Origin: a virus | IMG/VR virus record: IMGVR_UViG_3300042367_000583 | Location: 1 to 64,000 of that record | Length of the DNA: 64,000 nucleotides | Direction: 5' to 3' (one strand) | Shown: positions 8,768 through 58,930 of the stretch, in pieces | Position numbering within the stretch: the first letter of the stretch is position 1 | Layout: every line of letters begins with the position of its first letter | The notes under the pieces: generated by a model | What the model was told of the DNA's origin: nothing | Seen by the model: only the letters and a program-made list of their open reading frames with translations | Databases searched by the model: none | Translations under genes and position numbers: made by a program

Positions 8768-9370
8768 CTAATTGTCGCAGACTACCCGAAAACCGCTATT
8801 GAAGTAGCGGATGTCGCGGCGGTATCTGAAGTAGCGAACCGCGGAACGGCAGCGAAGAGGATAGTTGCCCCAGGAACCGCCCCGCAGACATTTTTCAGAC
8901 TGGGAACAATTATCATTATCAATCCACGCCGTGCTATCGTCTTCGCACCACTCCCAAACATTACCACTCATGTCATACAGTCCCCAACCATTGGGCTTTT
9001 TCTGTCCTACGGGATGAGTTTTACCACCAGAATTTTTGGCATACCAAGCGTAATTTCCTAACTGATTATCATCATCACCAAAATAATAGCGAGTAGTAGT
9101 ACCTGCTCGACAGGCATACTCCCATTCCGATTCTGTGGGTAGGCGATAGGTTTTCCCTGTTATTTGACTCAATTTCTGACAAAAGGCTTGAGCATCGTCC
9201 CAACTAACCTGTTCTACGGGATTTTGTGGATTATTTTGAAAGTAAGAGGGATTAGTTCCCATTACTTTTTGATATTGTTCCTGAGTCACTGGATATTTCC
9301 CAATCTTAAAACTACCAATTTCTTGATCTTGACTTGCTGGTATTTCTACTATTTCAATTTTAATCGTCAT
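8768..9370 (-). CDS. FGE/SUMF-type C-type-lectin-fold protein, likely DGR target
   Basis: A 200-residue single-domain protein of the formylglycine-generating-enzyme/sulfatase-modifying family: FKIGKYPVTQEQYQKVMG, YRLPTESEWEYACRAG, GLYDMSGNVWEWC, RGGSW and terminal GFRVVC. In phages and cyanobacteria this fold is a common carrier of hypervariable ligand sites made by diversity-generating retroelements. The last 35 codons fit: between RGGSW and GFRVV many codons have the form NNC/NNT (TAC, TTC, GTT, AAC, AAT), as expected from mutated AAC/AAT template codons. A second member lies at 22824-23351. The start has a good GGAG site. Enzymatic FGE activity is unlikely at this size. Binding partner unknown. 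Confidence 0.85.
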   Translation of the reverse strand: MTIKIEIVEIPASQDQEIGSFKIGKYPVTQEQYQKVMGTNPSYFQNNPQNPVEQVSWDDAQAFCQKLSQITGKTYRLPTESEWEYACRAGTTTRYYFGDDDNQLGNYAWYAKNSGGKTHPVGQKKPNGWGLYDMSGNVWEWCEDDSTAWIDNDNCSQSEKCLRGGSWGNYPLRCRSAVRYFRYRRDIRYFNSGFRVVCDN

Positions 9371-12594: not shown

Positions 12595-13110
12595 AGTATA
12601 TTTACTTGTTATCATTGTAGATACATTGTAGATAGGGTGATCTACAACCGAAACCGTTACCCTGTAAAGGTTCTAGACTTTGTTGATAATGTTGATGTCT
12701 TATAAAGGAAAAAGATAAAAGAATAAACCAGACTGGACAATAAAAAACTGTAGAGTAAAAAAAGCAAACAAAGTCAACAGCAAGGCTGTTGGATTGTGAT
12801 TCGATTGTAGATAACCTTATCTACAATCGAAAGCCTTGCAGAGTATAGGTTTCAAGGTTTGTTTATCTTGTTGGCACTCTATACAGAGAGAGAAAAGATA
12901 GGGAGAAATAAACGAACTGGACAATAAGAGAAGGATAAAAAATCCTGACACAGGGAAATAGAGTGACAATATAAACAAAGTCTAGAACCTATATATATCA
13001 ATGCTTTTTATTGTTGATCAACTTATCTACAATCTATTTACAAACCAACAAACTATAAACCCCCTATGAGTCCATAGGGGGTTTATCTTGAATGTCGGGG
13101 TGAAAACCCT
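12595..13110. repeat. palindrome-rich non-coding tract I
   Basis: No credible gene. It holds TTGTAGAT half sites as a direct repeat (12615, 12626), an 8-6-8 palindrome at 12626-12647, and a perfect 30-base palindrome with 14-base arms TCGATTGTAGATAA around CC at 12801-12830. A further half site is near 13024. A 16-base inverted pair GGTTCTAGACTTTGTT/AACAAAGTCTAGAACC flanks about 300 bases. The same palindrome family returns at 25.4-26.0 kb. It could be a replication origin, partition or packaging locus. Confidence 0.8.
13055..13086. terminator. strong hairpin, probable bidirectional terminator
   Basis: Perfect 14-base arms ATAAACCCCCTATG/CATAGGGGGTTTAT around AGTC. It lies 75 bases past the stop of the minus-strand gene at 13160 and separates it from tract I. 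Confidence 0.8.
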
Positions 13111-15378: not shown

Positions 15379-16068
15379 ATGCCAAGACGAAAAAAAGTAC
15401 CACCAAATAACTCAACCCCAACCCCTAAAAGCCCTGTATCAGGCAAGGCTAGTCGGTTTGATAATCTAATACCAAACGTACCTATCGAGTTTGGTCATTA
15501 TCCTATTTGGGAAAGACAACCCTACGAAATGTCTCAATGGTTTGAAAAATTTCAAGCTTTTTATATCCATCTTCCCGCGGGGTACAGAACATTAAATCGT
15601 GCTTTTAATGATTGCGCTATGTCGGCAGGTGAGGAAATTCCAAAGACCGAAAATAAACGCAGTATCACCGTTCCTGAACAATGGCAATTAGCTTATAAAA
15701 TTTATCGATGGGAGGATCGAGCTAAAGCATATTGGCTTAAAAAGATACAAGATCAAGAGGCTTATAGAGATGGAATTTTAAGCCAAATAATAGATAAAAG
15801 CATAAAGAATGCTTTTAGAACACTCGAAAAAAGCGAAGAGATAAACAATCGTTCGCTAGACGATCCTAACGGTAATTGGAGTCATAAAGACGCTGTGATC
15901 ATGGCTAAAGCTGTCACGGAAATAGTAGAAAAAGCATTAGGGCTTGACACTGTAGAATATGCTATTAGTATTTTACAAAAAAATGGGTTGGCCGCAATCG
16001 ACCCCGACGGGAACCTAATAGGACAGCCAACAGATAAAGGTAATTTAGAAGATGAAACTATCTTATAG
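15379..16068 (+). CDS. terS: terminase small subunit
   Basis: A protein of about 229 residues (MPRRKKVPPNN start) ending inside the large terminase gene by a 17-base overlap. It has a basic N-terminal tail, a central helical part (YRWEDRAKAYWLKKIQD) and a C-terminal helix (VIMAKAVTEIVEKALGL), as in DNA-recognising small terminases. The upstream ATG at 15358 would be nearly leaderless; 15379 has GGAG upstream, somewhat far. The call rests on position and composition. Confidence 0.75.
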   Translation: MPRRKKVPPNNSTPTPKSPVSGKASRFDNLIPNVPIEFGHYPIWERQPYEMSQWFEKFQAFYIHLPAGYRTLNRAFNDCAMSAGEEIPKTENKRSITVPEQWQLAYKIYRWEDRAKAYWLKKIQDQEAYRDGILSQIIDKSIKNAFRTLEKSEEINNRSLDDPNGNWSHKDAVIMAKAVTEIVEKALGLDTVEYAISILQKNGLAAIDPDGNLIGQPTDKGNLEDETIL

Positions 16069-18928
16069 AAATCTATCTAAGATAAAAGCAGCGACCGAAA
16101 AATATAAACTTGTTAATACCAAAGAAGAAATTGTTTTCCCTCAATTACAAGAGGGAAAACAAGCTTTATTTGGGGAAATTGACGCTGATGTAATTTTCTA
16201 TGGCGGAGGCGCAGGAAGTGGAAAAGCAGGGCGTGCATCCAAGACAGGAAAAGCGATTGGAGATAAAATGCTTTCTATGGCGGATGCGCTTTTAGGGAAA
16301 AGACTATTATCATATAATAGTAGTTTTAATGAATCGCAAATGAAAGATTCAAAGGTCTTGGGATGGAGCGGTCAATGGATTGACTTCTCTGATCTTAAAG
16401 TCGGGGATAAGATTATGAATCCTGATGGTCAGTATCAAGAAATCATCCAAATTCACGAACAGGGATTTAAACAATTTTATCGGGTTTCTTTTGAAGACGG
16501 TACAAGTACAGAATGCTGTGGCGATCATTTATGGTCTTTTTGGGAATCTCGCCGTAATAGCCGCAGGAAGTCTAGTAACGGGATTAATCGAATTGAGTCG
16601 AATCTGACACCTAGAGGATGGAATACTAATTACATTACAAGAGCAAGGGTTAGGGATACTAATTGGTTGATTACTGAGATTAGCAAAGGAAGACGGTTTA
16701 TTGTTCCAGTTAACGCGCCATTGCAATTTACGGCACTTAACAGGTCTGATACTGGCAGAGCCTATTTTTACGGTTGTTTAATAGGCGATGGTTCTTATTG
16801 TAGTGATTCAATTATCGTAACAACTTCTGATAGATTTATTGCTGATAAACTCGTTGATATTTTAGGGAAAGAAGCTACCGTTAAAACACGAACACCAATA
16901 AAAGATGACCGTTTAGAAGTTTTATCCGTCAACGCGACAAAAGTTCAATGGGTTAAGTCTTGGATAAGCAACAATGAATATAAAGGAAAAAGAGCGTGGG
17001 AAAAAGTATTTCCCGACGGCTATTTATCAGCATCTCTTGATTTTCGTTATGCGTTTGCTCAAGGTCTTTTTGATACAGATGGAACTGTTGGAGACAAAAA
17101 AAGAGAAGTTTCCTATTGCACAACCAGTAAAAATTTGGCTATTCAGGTAGCTTCTTTGGTTCGTTCTTTGGGTTATATGGCTAAGATTACGAAAAGACAA
17201 CCAAAATATAGATACAAAGGGGAGCATTTAGATGGTCGTACAGCTTACGTCGTGGCTGTTGAGGGAAATCACCTTGAATTACTTTTTAGTTTGCCGCGTA
17301 AAGTTGAACGAGCGAAAATGCTTGGACAATTTAATGGGGGATCAAGTTGGCCGGGTAAAAGAATTGTTTCTATTGAACCGACTGAAATTGATTACGCTCG
17401 TTGTATTACTGTTAGTAATCCAAATCATCTTTATTTAACAGATGATTATATAGTTACGCATAATAGTGCCGGGCTATTAATTGATTTTGCCCGTCAAGAA
17501 TTTATTAGCAATCCTGACTATCGGGCTGTTATATTTCGTCGGACGTATCCTGAATTTACTCAAGCGGGCGGTTTGATAGATGAAAGCCAAAAAATCTATC
17601 AAGCAGTGAAAGGTAATTTCATTGAAAAGCCTCCAGGGTGGCGATTTCCGATTGGATCGAAAATATCTTTTAGGCATTTACAATACGAAAAAACTGTCTA
17701 TGTTTATCAAGGGGGGCAAATTGCAAGGATAGGTTTTGATGAATTAACCCACTTTACAGAAGAACAGTTTTTCTATCTTCTCTCTAGAAACCGGTCAGTA
17801 TCGGGGATTAAACCCGCAGTTAGAGCAACCTGTAACCCCGATGCTGACTCTTGGGTAGCTAATTTTATCTCTTGGTGGATCGACCCTAAGACTGGGTATG
17901 CTATCGAAGAAAGATCGGGAATAATTAAATATTTTATCAGACAAAACGGTGTGGTTCATTGGGCCGACAGTAAACAAGAATTAATTGATAAATTTAGTCT
18001 TAAGGATGAACTGCTTGACCTTATTCCTAAAGATAAAAGAGAAAAGTTTTTATCAAATACAGATACTAATATTACACCAGATAAACTGATTAAAAGCTTT
18101 ACTTTTATTCCTGCTACGATTTTTGATAATCCTGCTTTAATTAGGGTTAATCCTACCTATTTGGCCAACCTTTATGCTTTGCATCCTATCGAACGGGAAA
18201 GACTTCTTAGAGGCAACTGGAAGATTAAATACGAAGCTGGTACAGTATTTGATCGGACTTGGTTTGAGATTCTCGATAAAATCCCCGATAATTGGAAATT
18301 AATAGGTAAAGTGAGATTCTGGGATTTAGCGGCAACTGCCAAAGAGAATGCTGAGAATTATCATTGCTATACCAGTGGCACTCTTGTCTATAAATACCAA
18401 AGAATTAAGAACACACTGCCAGATTCAACTGAGATTAAGGAATTTGCTTATGTGATTGCCGATAATATCTGTGAGCAGAAAAAAGTCGGGGAAGTTGAGC
18501 TAATGCTCGAAAATACTGCTGAACTGGATGGGAAAACTGTAGCTGTAAGATGGGAACAGGAAGGGGGATCGAGCGGTAAATTTGTTGAAAATACCATTAC
18601 TAATGTAATTAGAGAAAATCATCCGAACCATGACGTTAAAGCGATCGTGCCTCAAGGGGATAAGCTAACGCGAGCTTTACCAGTAGCCACGGCAGCTAGT
18701 CGGGGACAAATCTTTATCTTAAGAGATGGAACATGGAACACTCGGTTTTTAAATGCCTGCCAGGGTTTTGATGGTAGTAAAAAAACACCCCCGACTAATG
18801 ACATTGTAGATAGTCTATCAGGGGCATTTTATTCTCTTGAAAATGAGTTTCAAGAACATGAGAGGATTATTGGCACGATTGTTACTTCTGCTCCTGTTAA
18901 TCGGTTTAGAAGCGGTTTTAGGGGTTAG
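16052..18928 (+). CDS. terL: terminase large subunit interrupted by an intein
   Basis: A 958-codon precursor; removal of the 413-residue intein leaves a 545-residue TerL. The extein has Walker A GGGAGSGK|S split exactly by the intein, Walker B IGFDELTHF, the RATCNPD coupling motif, and nuclease acids in VRFWDLAAT, VRWEQEGGS and NDIVDSLSG. TerL cuts and pumps DNA into proheads, so its ATPase would be inactive until splicing. It follows terS in a two-gene plus-strand unit. No frameshift disrupts either part. Confidence 0.95.
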   Translation: MKLSYRNLSKIKAATEKYKLVNTKEEIVFPQLQEGKQALFGEIDADVIFYGGGAGSGKAGRASKTGKAIGDKMLSMADALLGKRLLSYNSSFNESQMKDSKVLGWSGQWIDFSDLKVGDKIMNPDGQYQEIIQIHEQGFKQFYRVSFEDGTSTECCGDHLWSFWESRRNSRRKSSNGINRIESNLTPRGWNTNYITRARVRDTNWLITEISKGRRFIVPVNAPLQFTALNRSDTGRAYFYGCLIGDGSYCSDSIIVTTSDRFIADKLVDILGKEATVKTRTPIKDDRLEVLSVNATKVQWVKSWISNNEYKGKRAWEKVFPDGYLSASLDFRYAFAQGLFDTDGTVGDKKREVSYCTTSKNLAIQVASLVRSLGYMAKITKRQPKYRYKGEHLDGRTAYVVAVEGNHLELLFSLPRKVERAKMLGQFNGGSSWPGKRIVSIEPTEIDYARCITVSNPNHLYLTDDYIVTHNSAGLLIDFARQEFISNPDYRAVIFRRTYPEFTQAGGLIDESQKIYQAVKGNFIEKPPGWRFPIGSKISFRHLQYEKTVYVYQGGQIARIGFDELTHFTEEQFFYLLSRNRSVSGIKPAVRATCNPDADSWVANFISWWIDPKTGYAIEERSGIIKYFIRQNGVVHWADSKQELIDKFSLKDELLDLIPKDKREKFLSNTDTNITPDKLIKSFTFIPATIFDNPALIRVNPTYLANLYALHPIERERLLRGNWKIKYEAGTVFDRTWFEILDKIPDNWKLIGKVRFWDLAATAKENAENYHCYTSGTLVYKYQRIKNTLPDSTEIKEFAYVIADNICEQKKVGEVELMLENTAELDGKTVAVRWEQEGGSSGKFVENTITNVIRENHPNHDVKAIVPQGDKLTRALPVATAASRGQIFILRDGTWNTRFLNACQGFDGSKKTPPTNDIVDSLSGAFYSLENEFQEHERIIGTIVTSAPVNRFRSGFRG
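16226..17464 (+). mobile_element. intein with LAGLIDADG homing endonuclease in TerL Walker A
   Basis: 413 residues between K58 and S472 of the precursor. It ends YIVTHN|S (penultimate His, terminal Asn, Ser +1). Residue 1 is alanine (AGRASKTG), not Cys or Ser. A block-A-like strand (DSKVLGWSGQWIDFSDLKVG) comes only about 40 residues in, so the N-terminus carries an unusual extension. LAGLIDADG motifs are FYGCLIGDGSY and FAQGLFDTDGTV. Ala1 inteins splice by direct attack of the +1 residue, which fits S472. Confidence 0.93.
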
Positions 18929-22823: not shown

Positions 22824-23351
22824 TTAATCACAAACTACCCGAAAACCAGTATTGCAGCAAGATTCTTCAAAATAGAGGTAACTAAGTTGTGCCGCACAAC
22901 ATCTATAGGAGTCGGTGTCAAATCCGCCCCCACGGGGAACCTTTTGACACCATTCCCAGACGTTGCCGTGCATATCGTACAATCCCCAAGCATTGGGCTT
23001 TTTCTGACCCACAGGATGAGTTATTAATCCAGAGTTATCTTCGTACCAAGCGTAATCTTTTAGCTGATCGAAATCATTACCAAAGCTAAATAGGGTTTCT
23101 GTACCAGCGCGACAGGCATATTCCCATTCTGAATTTGTAGGTAGGCGATAGTTTTTCCCTGTTATTCGTCTCAATTTCTGGTAAAAAGCTACGGCATTAT
23201 CATAACTAACTTGTTCTACTGGATTTTGGGGTTTGTTTATGAAATAAGAGGGGTTGTTTCCCATTACCTCTTGATATTGTTCCTGAGTAATGGGATATTT
23301 GCCAATTTTAAAGGTTACATTCGGAATCTCTATCATTTCAATCTCAATCAT
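22824..23351 (-). CDS. second FGE/SUMF-type protein, likely DGR target
   Basis: 175 residues, paralogous to the protein at 8768: FKIGKYPITQEQYQEVMG, YRLPTNSEWEYACRAG, GLYDMHGNVWEWC, RGGGF and GFRVVC. The two genes agree through the body but differ almost completely between RGG and GFRVV (here YRCCAAQLSYLYFEE), then agree again in the last bases (GGTTTTCGGGTAGT). That is the pattern of two variable repeats. Good GGAG site. No reverse transcriptase lies in this window. Confidence 0.83.
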   Translation of the reverse strand: MIEIEMIEIPNVTFKIGKYPITQEQYQEVMGNNPSYFINKPQNPVEQVSYDNAVAFYQKLRRITGKNYRLPTNSEWEYACRAGTETLFSFGNDFDQLKDYAWYEDNSGLITHPVGQKKPNAWGLYDMHGNVWEWCQKVPRGGGFDTDSYRCCAAQLSYLYFEESCCNTGFRVVCD

Positions 23352-37257: not shown

Positions 37258-37303
37258 ACTATACGCCTTCTTACTTGAATTGTCAAGATAATTTTGATAC
37301 ACT
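37258..37303. promoter_or_regulatory. overlapping divergent promoters
   Basis: Minus: TTGACA (37286-37281), 17 bases, TATAGT (37263-37258). Plus: TTGAAT (37275-37280), 17 bases, TACACT (37298-37303). The two -35 boxes adjoin, so the units cannot easily fire together. Confidence 0.75.
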
Positions 37304-37331
37304 AAGATTAGAAAAATTTATATTAATACAA

Positions 37332-37766
37332 ATGTTCGACAGTGCTATTGGAGTTGCGGGGAAATTTCTAGAAAATCCCACAATTAAGGCTAATGCCTCT
37401 CTATCCTTTTCCGTGGCTACAGGCTCGACTATAACTACAGATAGCGTAGGCAATCCGATCATAAGCCCTGCAGCGATGGAATCCGTAGTAATTACCTGTT
37501 GGTTGCAGCAGTCAAAACCGCCTGTAGCAGAAGTACAAGAAGGTAGTTATCTCGATTGTGAATATTTTGAGGGAAGATTAGTAAAGCCTAAAGATTACCC
37601 GCTCCCAATCAGGACTACAGGGGAACTACAAGTAACAATTAATGGCAGAATCGGTCTTGTCAGGCAGTTAAATGTGTTTGAGTCTCCAACAAGTCAACAG
37701 TTAGGAATTGCCGCAAAACTAGGACGGAGAATTAAACTTTATGCAAGATTTGATCAGGGTAGTTAA
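37332..37766 (+). CDS. probable virion protein, 144 residues
   Basis: MFDSAIGVAGKFLENPTIKA start; the longer frame from 37275 overlaps the promoters. Beta-rich, with VITCWLQQSKPPVAEVQEGS and LPIRTTGELQVTINGRIGLV. It stands alone on the plus strand beside the head genes; size and fold suggest a head-tail joining or decoration protein. Inference only. Confidence 0.55.
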   Translation: MFDSAIGVAGKFLENPTIKANASLSFSVATGSTITTDSVGNPIISPAAMESVVITCWLQQSKPPVAEVQEGSYLDCEYFEGRLVKPKDYPLPIRTTGELQVTINGRIGLVRQLNVFESPTSQQLGIAAKLGRRIKLYARFDQGS

Positions 37767-41169: not shown

Positions 41170-41889
41170 TTAGGTAAAAACAAAAGTATTGAGACGGGAA
41201 TCTATTAATCTTGCTTGGCAACAACTGCCACTGGCAACAAAACTGCATTCGACGGAGTCCATCTTTCCAGATCGGCGATAGTAAGGGGTTAGCGTTTCTT
41301 CATCTACTAGCCCTGCCATATACGGGGGGTAGTGTGGACATTTAGGATCACTGTAGGGAATATCACAGATAGGACAAATCGACTCGCCATAAAAAATTCC
41401 CCCCATTGAAACATCGGCTTTTCTGCCATAGGAAATTTCTGAAATAATCGGGTGAGTCGCTTCTACAAAACCGAAAACCAAGACCTGATGATAGCCGTTT
41501 TTTTGGATTATTCGATAATCTTCGCCTGGATTAGGAGATTTTTCGAGGATTCGTGCTATCCCTTCCTTGCTTACACGAGGCAAGGAATAAATAAAAGAAT
41601 CATAGATCATCCCAAAAGTTTTGGTCTGATCTTTCCATTCATGATCGATCATCAAAGCGCATCCAGGGTAACTAGCTACCATGGTTTCTAAGACATTTTC
41701 ATCCCATACCAGGCCGGAACTGTGGATTAAATTATTTGAGGCAATTAAAGCAAATCGCATCAGTTCCGATGGTTCCCACGGATCGAGTCCGTAGGGTTTG
41801 AATTGATTGATTAACGACATCTCCTCGTCGGTAGGATGACGGATCTGTAGCAATATCTCTAATTCAGCGCGGGTTAGTTTTAGTTCCAT
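41170..41889 (-). CDS. prohead protease-like protein
   Basis: 239 residues. MIDHEWKDQTKTFGMI supplies a histidine and KADVSMGGIFYGESI a serine in the order and spacing of herpes/HK97-type prohead proteases. A zinc-like CPICDIPYSDPKCPHY follows the serine, as in several phage head maturation proteases. It is immediately upstream of the capsid gene. Confidence 0.65.
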   Translation of the reverse strand: MELKLTRAELEILLQIRHPTDEEMSLINQFKPYGLDPWEPSELMRFALIASNNLIHSSGLVWDENVLETMVASYPGCALMIDHEWKDQTKTFGMIYDSFIYSLPRVSKEGIARILEKSPNPGEDYRIIQKNGYHQVLVFGFVEATHPIISEISYGRKADVSMGGIFYGESICPICDIPYSDPKCPHYPPYMAGLVDEETLTPYYRRSGKMDSVECSFVASGSCCQARLIDSRLNTFVFT

Positions 41890-41930
41890 GTCAATAAAAA
41901 ATACTTATATAAATAATTCTATCTAAAGGC

Positions 41931-42076
41931 TTGACGTTTGTGGTTGGTTGATCTATATTAATAGTGTCGTCTCCAACCGAAACCTATAAATATAAAATTT
42001 CAATACAAAATATTTGTCTCCATAGAAAGTGTATAGCTGAGGAAACAACGCAGGGCATCAATCCTGCGTTTTTTAT
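41931..42076 (+). ncRNA. candidate small RNA (promoter plus terminator, no ORF)
   Basis: Plus strand: TTGACG (41931-41936), 17 bases, TATATT (41954-41959), then about 110 bases with no reading frame, then a terminator AACGCAGG/CCTGCGTT with T run (42047-42074). The predicted RNA starts near 41966. Part of it (AACCGAAACCTATAAATATA) resembles the repeat motif of the palindrome tracts. Its terminator end is antisense to the last codons of the minor head gene. Confidence 0.55.
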
Positions 42077-42717
42077 TTCGTCCAGCCAAAGTTTAACGAA
42101 AGCATATTCTGGGTAGGTCGTGTCCTAGAGTTAGAAAAAATAAAGTAACAACCGCAATTGGCCCGACAAGTACATCTTTCAGTCGGTCGGGGGAGTGTTC
42201 CAATAGGCTGCCAACTGGCACTCTCATAAAAAAGGCACTCTTGGCAAGATTCTCTTTTGGTAATTATTCTCTTTTCCCACTTGTTGACTAGAGCGTGTCC
42301 TCTCCTGTTTCCCTCCTCAAAAGCTTCCCTAGACTTGGCAACGTACTGTCTAGAGCGATTGATTATTTGAGCCTCTGATTGAGTACCAAGAATAATATCA
42401 CGGGAAAACTTTCTTAGCCGTGCGTATTGACTGCGAAGCATCTGACCGATTCTACCGTAGTCAGAAGCGTTCATGTCGGGCTTACCAATTCGATAAAGTT
42501 GAATAGTTAAATCTTTAATTTCAAAAGAAATCTTCTCTTCCCACTCACTGACAGTAATCTTTTTCTGCAAAAGGTCACGGGTAAGTTTATCTGTTTTTTG
42601 AGTACGGGCATTAATAGTTTGTTGGGAGATTTGTCTAACTTTTTCAGTAGAGACAAATCTCCCCGTTCTATTGTCTCGATAGCGTCGAGTACCAGGGTTA
42701 AAAGAAAAATCACTCAT
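42073..42717 (-). CDS. minor head protein (MuF-like)
   Basis: 214 residues. A helical N-terminal part, then KRESCQECLFYESASWQPIG and LPRPTERCTCRANCGCYF, the Cys-rich end typical of Mu gpF/SPP1 gp7-type minor head proteins. Such proteins are injected or stay at the portal. Genes for portal and protease lie on either side. Confidence 0.8.
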   Translation of the reverse strand: MSDFSFNPGTRRYRDNRTGRFVSTEKVRQISQQTINARTQKTDKLTRDLLQKKITVSEWEEKISFEIKDLTIQLYRIGKPDMNASDYGRIGQMLRSQYARLRKFSRDIILGTQSEAQIINRSRQYVAKSREAFEEGNRRGHALVNKWEKRIITKRESCQECLFYESASWQPIGTLPRPTERCTCRANCGCYFIFSNSRTRPTQNMLSLNFGWTK

Positions 42718-42881: not shown

Positions 42882-43256
42882 CTATTTGTACAGTAGTATT
42901 TTTCTGGTTTTAGCTTCTTTGATTAGCCGATCACAAACATTACGCGAAGTATGACCATCCCATTCAGGGGCTTTAGGAACCCACACGGAATTAGGAATTA
43001 AATCTGCAAATTTTATCGGTAAATGATAGGTAATTATTCCGCTATTTAATTTACATCCCGCAATAAACCATCCTTCCCAAACAGTCTCGTCGTCGTGACA
43101 GTAAGAGGCAAACGAAAAAGCTGGCAGTAATCCGATTAGCTGAATAAATAAAAGACATCGATGGTCATAAAGTTCCTCAAAAGTGTGGTATCCATCTGAG
43201 ACTTTGCTAGAGTCGCAAGGTATAAAGTTATCGTTGACTGTAATCCCTTCTGTCAT
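42882..43256 (-). CDS. conserved phage protein of the 'DGYHTFEELYDHR' type
   Basis: 124 residues with SDGYHTFEELYDHRCLLFIQ, WEGWFIAGCKLNSGIITYHL and PEWDGHTSRNVCDRL, three blocks found together in a widespread phage protein of unknown function. Complete and undisrupted, inside the head block. Confidence 0.75.
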   Translation of the reverse strand: MTEGITVNDNFIPCDSSKVSDGYHTFEELYDHRCLLFIQLIGLLPAFSFASYCHDDETVWEGWFIAGCKLNSGIITYHLPIKFADLIPNSVWVPKAPEWDGHTSRNVCDRLIKEAKTRKILLYK

Positions 43257-55767: not shown

Positions 55768-55967
55768 GAAATTTCTTGAAAATCTTCTTTGCGAAAACAG
55801 TAAAAATGTTCTCCTTTTGTGAGGCGATCAATTGATTCAAAGTGATAGTAGATTCCTATGGCAGTCTTAATAATCCCCAGTGGTTTACATTGGGGGAAAA
55901 TACGTCCATAGGAATTGACACGATAAACCTTTTCAGGGTATCGAGAGGGAATGTATTGTCCAATCAT
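55764..55967 (-). CDS. small protein, 67 residues, coupled to primase
   Basis: MIGQYIPSRYPEKVYRVNSY start overlaps the primase stop (TAATG). The beta-strand-rich sequence ends FRKEDFQEIS. Unrecognised; possibly a partner of the primase-helicase. Confidence 0.65.
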   Translation of the reverse strand: MIGQYIPSRYPEKVYRVNSYGRIFPQCKPLGIIKTAIGIYYHFESIDRLTKGEHFYCFRKEDFQEIS

Positions 55968-58867
55968 TAGGTACTTATATCCTCTAAATAACAATTAGAA
56001 AACGGAATTGTAAAAGTGATCACAGACCCATTTAAGACAGTTTCTACCCTCAAAAGCCATTGATTGTCAAAAGTGTCAAAAGTTGCTTCTATAACTTTTC
56101 CGACCGCTCTTGGTGGGATAGTTCGCTCTCCTATCTCTACAGATGCAGCCGTTCGTATTAATACGGTTTCTTTTTTAAGATCAGGGAGGCTATCGATATA
56201 GACACCATCAGCTGAGAATTCATCGATTACTGGTTCTGATTCAATTTCTACTATGTCAGAATTAGAGATCGATTCATTTTTTGGGCGTGTAAAAGTGGGA
56301 CTGGCAACTTGAACAATTTCTTCTTTTATCTCTGATTGATATTCCAGAGAATCTTCTATCTCAAAAGTTTCTACTACTTTTGGCTCCTGATAGTGCAACA
56401 CCATACCCCTTGACTTAATTTCTAGTCGTCCATAACCAGCGTTTTCTAGCTGAGTAAGTAGGGTACGGGCGATAGAGGTATTTACTCTTTCTCCGTTAAT
56501 TTTACGTCCGCCAAATTTGCCGACAACTTCCCGGGGTGTCATTTTTCCAGCAGTTTTAACGATCTCCCAGATTTCGGATAAAATGCCCTGTACTGGATTT
56601 TCGTCCTGAGATGTAACTCCCTGAATTGTCAAGAATTGACTGATATAGAAGTCGGTCATCTTAGCAGCTTTAATGGCTGTTTGCACAGGAATACTGTAAA
56701 GATTGGTATTCTCTGGATCAAATATCCAATTGAGAAGATGGATGCTTAATGTAAGCCTTAAAAAGGTCTTCATTTGTTTGCCTAGGTAGGAAGCAAATGA
56801 TGGATTAATCGCTCGGTACTTCTTAATAAGTATCTCGTAATGGTATTTAATCCCGAAAGCGTAGTCTTCCCCGTTCGAGGTAAACCAACAATTATAAGGA
56901 TCGACAATCCCATTTTCATCAGCTTCTAGACTAATTCCACTGATTTGATTGATAATATTTTCGATACACTCGTCAATAGAGTTGGGATCTTCTGGCGGTC
57001 TGCCAGGACGAGGATCAAGAGGTTCATGAAGTAAAAAAAGATACCGAGAAACTGCCCCATCGACATCATTAGATAAATCAAGATATTTTCTGAGTTTCTC
57101 GACTTGTATCCCACCTAATTTATTAAGTGTTTGCCCATCTAAATAGTATCGATTGTCTTTGTTTACGCGGTCAAAAGTATTTCGGATAGGGCCATTCCAG
57201 TTACTTAAGTCTCGTTGCCGGTCATTCCCTTTACCACCTGATCGGTACTGATTTAATCCCTCGAAAAATCCCGATAATTCGTCATAGACGACTACCCCAC
57301 CTTGCCAAGAAGGTTGCGAGGACATCGTTTTTAAGATGCCATCAAGAGTACCTTCATCATAAAACCACCGACGCGCCTGACAGTGTTCTCTCTCGTAAAG
57401 ACGAGGGTTGATTTCAGCGTTTGTTTTGTTTGCCTTGCGATCTGACGCTGACATCTCTTGCCACGCAGCTTTTAGATCGTCTAGTGTAGATTGCTCTTTA
57501 GTAACTCTCTTCTGCTCGGCTAAATCTTTTCTTTTTAAAACCCGACAAACTTCATTTTGAGTGAGAGTTTTGCCAGTGGAAACCCCGCCCAGGTCTGCAC
57601 AATAGAATATCGGGTATTCCTTCCAGCATTCCCTTTCTCTTACAGTAGTTCGGAGGTTAATTGCAAACCGGCTACCTAAAATACTTCCTAGTATTGGCCA
57701 TAAAGAATGTAGTAATCTGATTGGGGGTTGATTTAATGTCTTGGCACGACTTATAATCGCTTCGGCTAAAGGTTTCGGAAGTATTTCAGAAAGATCAATC
57801 TCTTTTTTCTGGTAATGCTTACCTTTCAGGAACCCTTCTAATCCTGATTTAATAGCGTCCCCTTCTGCTATTTCTGTTTTACGGATTTCAATTAAATATC
57901 GTATTTCTGCTGGTTTCTTGCCAGTGGCTTTTGCCCACAGATCAACTTTTTCTTGCCACTGAGTTCGGGTGATTTCGTTCTGACCAATACAGCCGTCAAT
58001 AGCTGTTATTAGGTCTTGAAAAGTCATCGTTTCTGTTATTGTGACTTCCTTTTCTTTTTTCTCTTTTATTTCTTTTGGTTTATCAACTATTGAGGCTAAT
58101 AATTCCTTAAGATCGATTTTCTTTTCCTCAATCCAATTAAGAATATCTACCCCTTGAGAATCTGGTAAATGATCCCACAAAGGAGAATCTGGATAAGCAT
58201 AAAGCCATTTTGCATCGGGGAAATCTTGATAAATTTTCTGGCAGTGAGACACTCCCCCTTTGTCACGATCAGGGCATAAAATCAGATTTGCTCCCTTTAA
58301 AGCTTCTGTGTGGGACGATTGCCATTTCTTTGATCCGCCTATATTACAAGTGGCAACTAATCCTAGAGATTCAAGCTTTTCTACTTTAGTCTCACCCTCA
58401 ACTACAAATACCCGGTTTCCTTCTTTAATAGCCTTTTCTAGGCGGTCTTGACGATAAAGAGGTATATCTTTGTACTCAATATCGCCTATGCCCCACTTCC
58501 AAGTTTTACCATTGTCTGTAGAGTGTTGCTGTCTGATATCCTTTTTCCAGATACCATTCTCTTGATAGTCCTTCCGGTACACACGGACTCTTAACCCATT
58601 GGCAAGAGGGGGATAAAGGAAGTATTGGGCTTTTTCTTCTTTATAGGCAGAAAATTTGGGTTCTTTCTTGAGATAGTAGAGCGGTGTACCCTCACTATCT
58701 ACTTTGCTCGATTTTTCCCATCCTGGTGCGGGGTCGTAGTTTCGCTTGCATACCGAGAGTAGATTGCCGTCCTCGGCTGTGTACATATAGCACCAATCAG
58801 TCTTACCACAGTGGGGGCAAGGATTGTTTTCGTTGATCTTGACACGATTCGAGGATTGTGTTACCAT
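55967..58867 (-). CDS. primase-helicase (zinc finger, TOPRIM, DUF3987 ATPase)
   Basis: 966 residues. Zinc site CPHCGKTDWCYM...LLSVCKR near the N-terminus; TOPRIM with FVVEGETKVEKLESLG and CPDRDKGGVSHC; a helical linker; then a DUF3987-type ATPase with GGVSTGKTLTQNEV (Walker A) and GGVVVYDELSGFF (Walker B); a winged-helix-like end (TPREVVGKFGGRKINGERVN). It would prime and unwind phage DNA. It lies next to recombination genes. Confidence 0.88.
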   Translation of the reverse strand: MVTQSSNRVKINENNPCPHCGKTDWCYMYTAEDGNLLSVCKRNYDPAPGWEKSSKVDSEGTPLYYLKKEPKFSAYKEEKAQYFLYPPLANGLRVRVYRKDYQENGIWKKDIRQQHSTDNGKTWKWGIGDIEYKDIPLYRQDRLEKAIKEGNRVFVVEGETKVEKLESLGLVATCNIGGSKKWQSSHTEALKGANLILCPDRDKGGVSHCQKIYQDFPDAKWLYAYPDSPLWDHLPDSQGVDILNWIEEKKIDLKELLASIVDKPKEIKEKKEKEVTITETMTFQDLITAIDGCIGQNEITRTQWQEKVDLWAKATGKKPAEIRYLIEIRKTEIAEGDAIKSGLEGFLKGKHYQKKEIDLSEILPKPLAEAIISRAKTLNQPPIRLLHSLWPILGSILGSRFAINLRTTVRERECWKEYPIFYCADLGGVSTGKTLTQNEVCRVLKRKDLAEQKRVTKEQSTLDDLKAAWQEMSASDRKANKTNAEINPRLYEREHCQARRWFYDEGTLDGILKTMSSQPSWQGGVVVYDELSGFFEGLNQYRSGGKGNDRQRDLSNWNGPIRNTFDRVNKDNRYYLDGQTLNKLGGIQVEKLRKYLDLSNDVDGAVSRYLFLLHEPLDPRPGRPPEDPNSIDECIENIINQISGISLEADENGIVDPYNCWFTSNGEDYAFGIKYHYEILIKKYRAINPSFASYLGKQMKTFLRLTLSIHLLNWIFDPENTNLYSIPVQTAIKAAKMTDFYISQFLTIQGVTSQDENPVQGILSEIWEIVKTAGKMTPREVVGKFGGRKINGERVNTSIARTLLTQLENAGYGRLEIKSRGMVLHYQEPKVVETFEIEDSLEYQSEIKEEIVQVASPTFTRPKNESISNSDIVEIESEPVIDEFSADGVYIDSLPDLKKETVLIRTAASVEIGERTIPPRAVGKVIEATFDTFDNQWLLRVETVLNGSVITFTIPFSNCYLEDIST

Positions 58868-58907
58868 AAATGTTATCGAAATAAAAGAAAAGTGTTTTGT
58901 TTACACG

Positions 58908-58930
58908 ACCCGCTTCCGAGCGGGTTTTTT
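58908..58930 (+). terminator. hairpin with T run on the plus strand
   Basis: ACCCGCT/AGCGGGT around TCCG, followed by T6 on the plus strand. It sits in the 5' leader of the minus-strand primase gene; no plus-strand gene precedes it, so it may limit antisense transcription. From 58931 to 59022 I see nothing. Confidence 0.6.

Follow-up and report, generated by a model that had tools for sequence, protein, structure and literature searches.

Our analysis suggests that the plus-strand stretch 41931-42074 of a viral genome constitutes a gene of its own that encodes a small non-coding RNA, which would be made from a host-type promoter and act in trans during infection; we put the probability of this reading at roughly 0.6. 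Comparison of relatives shows a predicted promoter, an unpaired AU-rich core and an intrinsic terminator preserved as one unit, present in about one copy per genome, in two phage groups that are otherwise largely unrelated, and at different places. The phage small RNA gene put forward in the original prediction is strongly supported by this comparison, which covers close and far relatives as well as the A-1(L)-type phages. Two functions had been proposed for the RNA, and action in trans is the better reading of the two because core, promoter and terminator occur at another place and in another orientation in the A-1(L)-type phages; the second proposal, an antisense brake on a minor head gene, fares less well (see below).

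The predicted RNA gene and its conservation

The window, that is the whole stretch of DNA analysed, corresponds to positions 1-64000 of a virus record in IMG/VR that is 84,017 bases long. It looks like a virus of cyanobacteria whose named relatives are only distant Cylindrospermopsis phages: the best named relatives of its head-region proteins are Cr-LKS4 and RM-2018a (29-32% identity), and one head-region protein also matches Synechococcus phage S-CBS4. Elsewhere in the window, the terminase large subunit gene (16052-18928, plus strand) contains a long insert at about residues 100-475, which is probably an intein as judged by the part that matches terminase profiles, and two minus-strand frames (8768-9370 and 22824-23351) resemble, by eye, formylglycine-generating-enzyme/sulfatase-modifying domains. 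The predicted RNA unit lies in the gap 41890-42072 between two minus-strand head-region genes:

41170-41889, minus strand: flanking gene, matches a head maturation protease family weakly (PHROGs, E 9e-4)
41931-41959, plus strand: promoter TTGACG, spacer 17, TATATT (-35 at 41931-41936, -10 at 41954-41959)
41966-42074, plus strand: predicted small non-coding RNA, ~109 nt; predicted start 7 bases past the -10
41986-42013, plus strand: unpaired AU-rich core, a 28-mer conserved across relatives
42047-42074, plus strand: intrinsic terminator, 9-pair hairpin then T-run, stem kept via paired changes
42073-42717, minus strand: flanking gene, phrog_24776 (E 8.4e-40), a family of unknown function

The promoter and the downstream terminator that had been noticed earlier are both present as described, and no conserved frame lies between them. 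The sole listed plus-strand frame over the RNA, a 50-aa GTG frame (41964-42116), runs through the terminator and is put out of register by indels in relatives (gap plus stop codon spans 178-186 bases in the close group); the RNA lacks an ATG in 29 of the 30 distinct gaps from relatives. Other parts of the earlier description need amendment. Both immediate neighbours are indeed on the minus strand, as the unit's supposed opposition to all neighbours would have it, but further off the plus frame 37275-37766 (163 aa) is not covered by a longer frame on the minus strand; every other plus frame of at least 100 aa between 38 and 64 kb overlaps a longer minus one. The gene at 42073-42717, which had been called a minor head gene, belongs to a family to which PHROGs assigns no function. 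A resemblance to a motif of the palindrome tracts holds in so far as AACC(G)AAACCTATA is present and enriched in the window (17 matches at up to 3 mismatches, against a mean of 8.4 and a largest value of 15 in 100 shuffles); AACCGAAACC, however, is found in just 7 of the 25 close relatives and in none of the 5 far ones, and so does not belong to the conserved RNA. One such palindrome tract, at 12600-13080, contains elements such as TTGTAGATAACCTTATCTACAA with AACCGAAACC-like flanks.

Taken singly, promoter-like and terminator-like matches occur at chance level in the region (38 against a shuffle mean of 36.5, and 11 against 9.0, respectively). The combination of a promoter matching at least 10 of 12 bases with a strong terminator 50-150 bases further on is found twice in the 64-kb window and in none of 60 dinucleotide shuffles. 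As evidence for an RNA gene, conservation is stronger than these chance statistics. Intergenic promoter-terminator pairs may be worth scanning for in phage genomes, as the same scan gave a second conserved pair in the window. This second unit (58839-58930, plus strand) consists of TTGACA..TACCAT followed by ACCCGCTTCCGAGCGGGTTTTTT and lies opposite the 5' leader of the minus-strand gene 55967-58867; promoter- and terminator-like sequences persist in the same position, with other stems, in G002 and in the relatives that G008 and G010 carry at 55% identity. It is possibly an antisense RNA on the ribosome site of 55967-58867. In Rfam, no family reaches its gathering score for the region of the first unit, one sub-threshold match being on the other strand (17.6 bits against the 64 needed).

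Loci in relatives were obtained from searches with both flanking proteins, which gave 90 loci with both genes (some contigs counted twice) and 30 distinct homologous gap sequences, 25 close and 5 far. In the close gaps, the -35 and the 17-base spacer length are invariant (25/25) and the -10 reads TATATT in 22 and TACATT in 3. The consensus fold contains the terminator hairpin and nothing else. Its stem shows standard pairs in all 144 pair cells of the close group, and pairing falls to 26-63% when the partner is slid. Changes on both sides affect 20 cells, where shuffling gives a mean of 6.0; the number of pairs with such changes, 4 of 8, is not above shuffles (mean 3.4), and the paired changes all fall within one set of 5 sequences, so that they may represent one event. 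These counts refer to 21 close-group rows (18 distinct), because the alignment fails to line up the terminators of the two groups. Among the close relatives, the terminator loop (near 42055-42062) is found either way round, as ATTGATAC or as the reverse complement GTATCAAT, on a preserved stem, as after inversion or template switching.

The five far gaps lack the -35 and have instead an extended -10 (TATGGTAAGAT or TATGTTAAGAT) and another terminator. The fourfold sites of their flanking genes are 27-38% identical to the window and their terminators 36-53%, whereas the stretch 41983-42013 is 68-77% identical; the AT-rich composition raises identities of this kind. The core is still kept in the far genome G010, which has 50.3% GC. 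When L049, L092 and L093 are folded, each retains a terminator hairpin. For L043 and L044, two relatives of intermediate distance, core identity to the window is 77%, which is unexceptional because the fourfold sites stand at about the same level (75% and 71%).

The conserved core, AUAAAUACAAAAUUUnAAUACAAAAUwU, consists of two imperfect, unpaired 13-mers. In the window these 13-mers (41988-42000 and 42001-42013) are equal at 10 of 13 positions; across 10 sequences the figure ranges from 8 to 13 of 13. All 41 viral contigs that contain an exact window-type core fall in the family lists of the flanking genes.

The unit in a second phage group

An initial blastn search with the region as query matched 7 of 50,697 phage records at E 0.2-0.6, three of them from Staphylococcus phages and four from A-1(L)-type phages. 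The latter match at 26 of 28 bases, and in three of the four no feature is annotated there. In A-1(L), a promoter, AATAAATACAAAATTTAAATACAAAATAT and a terminator stand immediately 5' of the spike gene and on the same strand, and this layout is repeated in Elbi, YongM, YongM2 and Dfl-JY23, the terminator stems of Elbi, YongM2 and Dfl-JY23 differing from that of A-1(L). Both the genomic place and the orientation differ from those in the window family. The hosts given in the records are Nostoc, Anabaena and Dolichospermum, and at none of the A-1(L)-type units shown is an RNA gene annotated. An ATG is present in three of the five A-1(L)-type RNAs and absent in the other two. When the A-1(L) region is used as query, A-1(L)-type records come first (E <=8e-5) and others follow from 0.1, among the best 40 of 51 records; a 52-base composite query matches 5 records, 4 of them A-1(L)-type. 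The two groups are otherwise largely unrelated: at a tblastn threshold of E 1e-4, matches of A-1(L) frames to G000 or G010 are confined to genes resembling transposases, methylases and helicases and to 132 residues of the hub. Directly upstream of the RNA unit in A-1(L) (L003, OR360731; 2420-2490) there is a further tiny promoter-hairpin-T-run unit, GGGTTCATTAAGTTCTACC-like, which is also present in L137, L139 and L140 and was not seen in Elbi or the window.

Without any model, the A-1(L) 28-mer matches G000 at 26 of 28 bases at 41986 (next best 19), G002 at 26 of 28 at the RNA (next 20) and G010 at 23 of 28 at the RNA (next 19); being ungapped, it fails on G008, whose core has a one-base deletion. 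As a guard against circularity, two separate models were built, one from 9 window-family cores and the other from 5 A-1(L)-type cores. In 5/5 A-1(L)-type records the window-family model finds its best match on the RNA, at E 1.9e-5 to 1.1e-3; in seven other named cyanophages it finds nothing at or below 0.1. Conversely, the A-1(L)-type model has its best match on the RNA in 10/10 window-family records at E 5.6e-5 to 0.41, of which four scores exceed 0.1 and are at noise level. Non-members also reach low values: a 250-kb AT-rich viral contig picked by pattern scores E 6e-4 and 0.0011 with the two models, and Lbo-JY46 reaches 0.05 with the A-1(L)-type model; a second site in YongM scores E 0.005. 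AT-rich plasmids reach 5e-5 by blastn, and these 22 records were set aside as AT-rich noise. The core is short and AT-rich, and the cross-group argument rests on its position between promoter and terminator in both groups more than on E-values.

A joint model gives a match below 1e-3 in 18 of 25 records, one in each (13 window-family and 5 A-1(L)-type), all 18 having been chosen as members and several having supplied training sequences. The same model finds nothing better than 0.065 in Lbo-JY46, Cr-LKS4, S-CBS4, RM-2018a, Mae-JY30, N-1 and CL131. Three of these were not counted as members: Lbo-JY46, whose match (0.065) lies inside an annotated coding frame, and Cr-LKS4 and RM-2018a, with 16-base matches at 0.3. 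Also rejected were the matches in L142 and L143, outside both groups, which are AT-rich and on reading have no G+C-rich terminator, and that in L240, a contig whose best model match is no better than 0.16. No unit was found in six further cyanophages (four of Microcystis and two of Nodularia). A scan of GTDB genomes on both strands for the core pattern, which near variants would escape, found one stretch, in a Clostridia MAG, and none in cyanobacteria; a host origin of the core was rejected on this result. Since both strands were read, a full complement fitting the pattern was likewise not found in GTDB.

Candidate partners and alternative explanations

We infer that an RNA is made from the unit, that its activity resides in the core and that its partner is a host component. 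A host partner seems likelier than a phage partner because, apart from having hosts of one kind, the two groups have little in common; the phage itself gave no pairing partner. When the RNA is compared with 104 phage gene starts, its best pairing is equalled or beaten by 60/60 shuffles; for the core alone the figure is 35/60, and for pairing over the whole phage genome 4/6. A candidate phage mRNA target, 42882-43256, with whose ribosome site the second GUCUCC of the RNA can pair over 11 bases, was rejected because the two sides show no covariation among 7 distinct combinations from relatives. No phage mRNA target for a base-pairing RNA emerged from these comparisons. Also discarded was TATAAATA as a late promoter, CTATAAATA being found 39 times at up to one mismatch against 39.35 expected.

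A cis-antisense brake would pair, between the two head genes, with read-through mRNA made from the minus strand and reduce its level or bring about its cleavage. In favour of this, the RNA lies opposite both neighbours and extends as far as the stop codon of 42073-42717, and antisense RNAs are known in cyanophages, for instance CfrI (PMC12197685). We nevertheless regard such a brake as unlikely. The overlap is confined to that stop codon, and at the other end the RNA falls short of the start of 41170-41889. Furthermore, an RNA that acts on its own complementary strand has no need of a conserved sequence, whereas this core is preserved in both groups, and in the A-1(L)-type phages the unit shares the strand of the spike gene that follows. 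No annotated gene lies opposite the A-1(L) unit; opposite that of YongM2 there is an annotated 38-codon hypothetical frame. The brake proposed in the original prediction thus leaves the kept sequence unexplained.

It is improbable, too, that the core is an operator or another protein site on DNA whose transcription is incidental. Tandem repeats can serve as protein sites, and stoperator-like repeats have been suggested elsewhere in A-1, according to the part of Chenard et al. 2016 (PMC4916379) considered here. Against this stand the single copy or so per genome, the orientation relative to promoter and terminator, which is fixed in both groups, with a core-to--10 distance of 5 to 26 bases across them, and the covariation of the hairpin behind the core. 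Even less probable is a transcript-primed replication origin, for which T4 oriF and the T7 primary origin offer comparisons. The AT-rich tandem 13-mers right after the promoter, at about one copy per genome, would melt easily between promoter and terminator and let the RNA prime DNA synthesis; however, no GC-skew extreme coincides with the unit in any of five genomes (a weak test, since every record except that of A-1(L) may be incomplete), and N-1 does without the unit. A leader or attenuator, controlling in cis the transcription of the gene behind the terminator, is very improbable: the unit does stand directly before a same-strand spike gene in A-1(L), Elbi, YongM, YongM2 and Dfl-JY23, but the window family has minus-strand genes next and no plus-strand gene following, and the unit cannot be a needed leader since N-1 has the spike gene (86.7% identical to that of A-1(L)) without it. 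Upstream of a more distant spike-gene relative, L174 (56%), no core was found (L176 and Lbo402-yong5 were left out).

The preferred reading is that of an RNA which would be made from a host-type promoter and act in trans on something in the host cell. Its single-stranded core may either base-pair with host mRNAs or offer two binding sites that sequester a host RNA-binding factor, and the terminator hairpin would stabilise the 3' end of the RNA. We lean slightly towards titration, given that the core is repeated in tandem and that the phage yielded no pairing partner; the tandem 13-mers fit two protein sites. In its most specific form, a single RNA decoy family, made of two tandem 13-nt AU-rich sites and a terminator, would occupy one and the same host RNA-binding factor on behalf of unrelated phages of filamentous cyanobacteria, which we consider doubtful, if conceivable. 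RNase E is a guess at the factor: in Synechocystis this enzyme prefers, within AU-rich RNA, sites with A at -3/-4 and U at +2 (PMC10989929). If the decoy reading were true, the RNA would be a shared, exchangeable anti-host factor. That phages with otherwise largely unrelated genes have this core in common suggests that they also share a host partner; A-1(L) or Elbi, as isolated phages that can be studied on Anabaena/Nostoc PCC 7120, make this testable.

Comparison with known systems

Lambda OOP RNA, about 77 nt in size, is one phage RNA with which the window RNA can be compared. OOP is likewise short, terminated and opposite neighbouring genes, but overlaps its target cII, whereas the window RNA reaches only a stop codon (PMC12197685, in part). 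Among the cyanophage RNAs named in the same portion of that source, the S-CREM1 RNAs and CfrI, none is described like the window RNA. CfrI of S-PM2 is also a cyanophage non-coding RNA, but is antisense at psbA, whereas the window RNA is intergenic with a core that recurs at unrelated places. The part of Chenard et al. 2016 (PMC4916379) considered here reports promoter motifs, terminators and tRNA genes sought in A-1 and N-1 and names no such RNA, and no paper on it stood among the matches listed in a literature search, as judged by titles and the beginnings of abstracts. VpdS of VP882 and PreS of lambda resemble the window RNA in being short, phage-encoded and presumed to act on other RNAs or proteins; they are tied to Hfq (PMC12197685, same portion).

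The nearest counterpart is the A-1(L)-type unit itself (A-1(L), A1, Elbi, YongM, YongM2, Dfl-JY23), which has the promoter, the core (26/28 between A-1(L) and the window) and the terminator in common with the window RNA, but is shorter, stands before a spike gene, and has its core at the 5' end, an extended -10 and other terminator stems. The window and A-1(L)-type RNAs are accordingly filed here as a putative new family of phage small RNAs.
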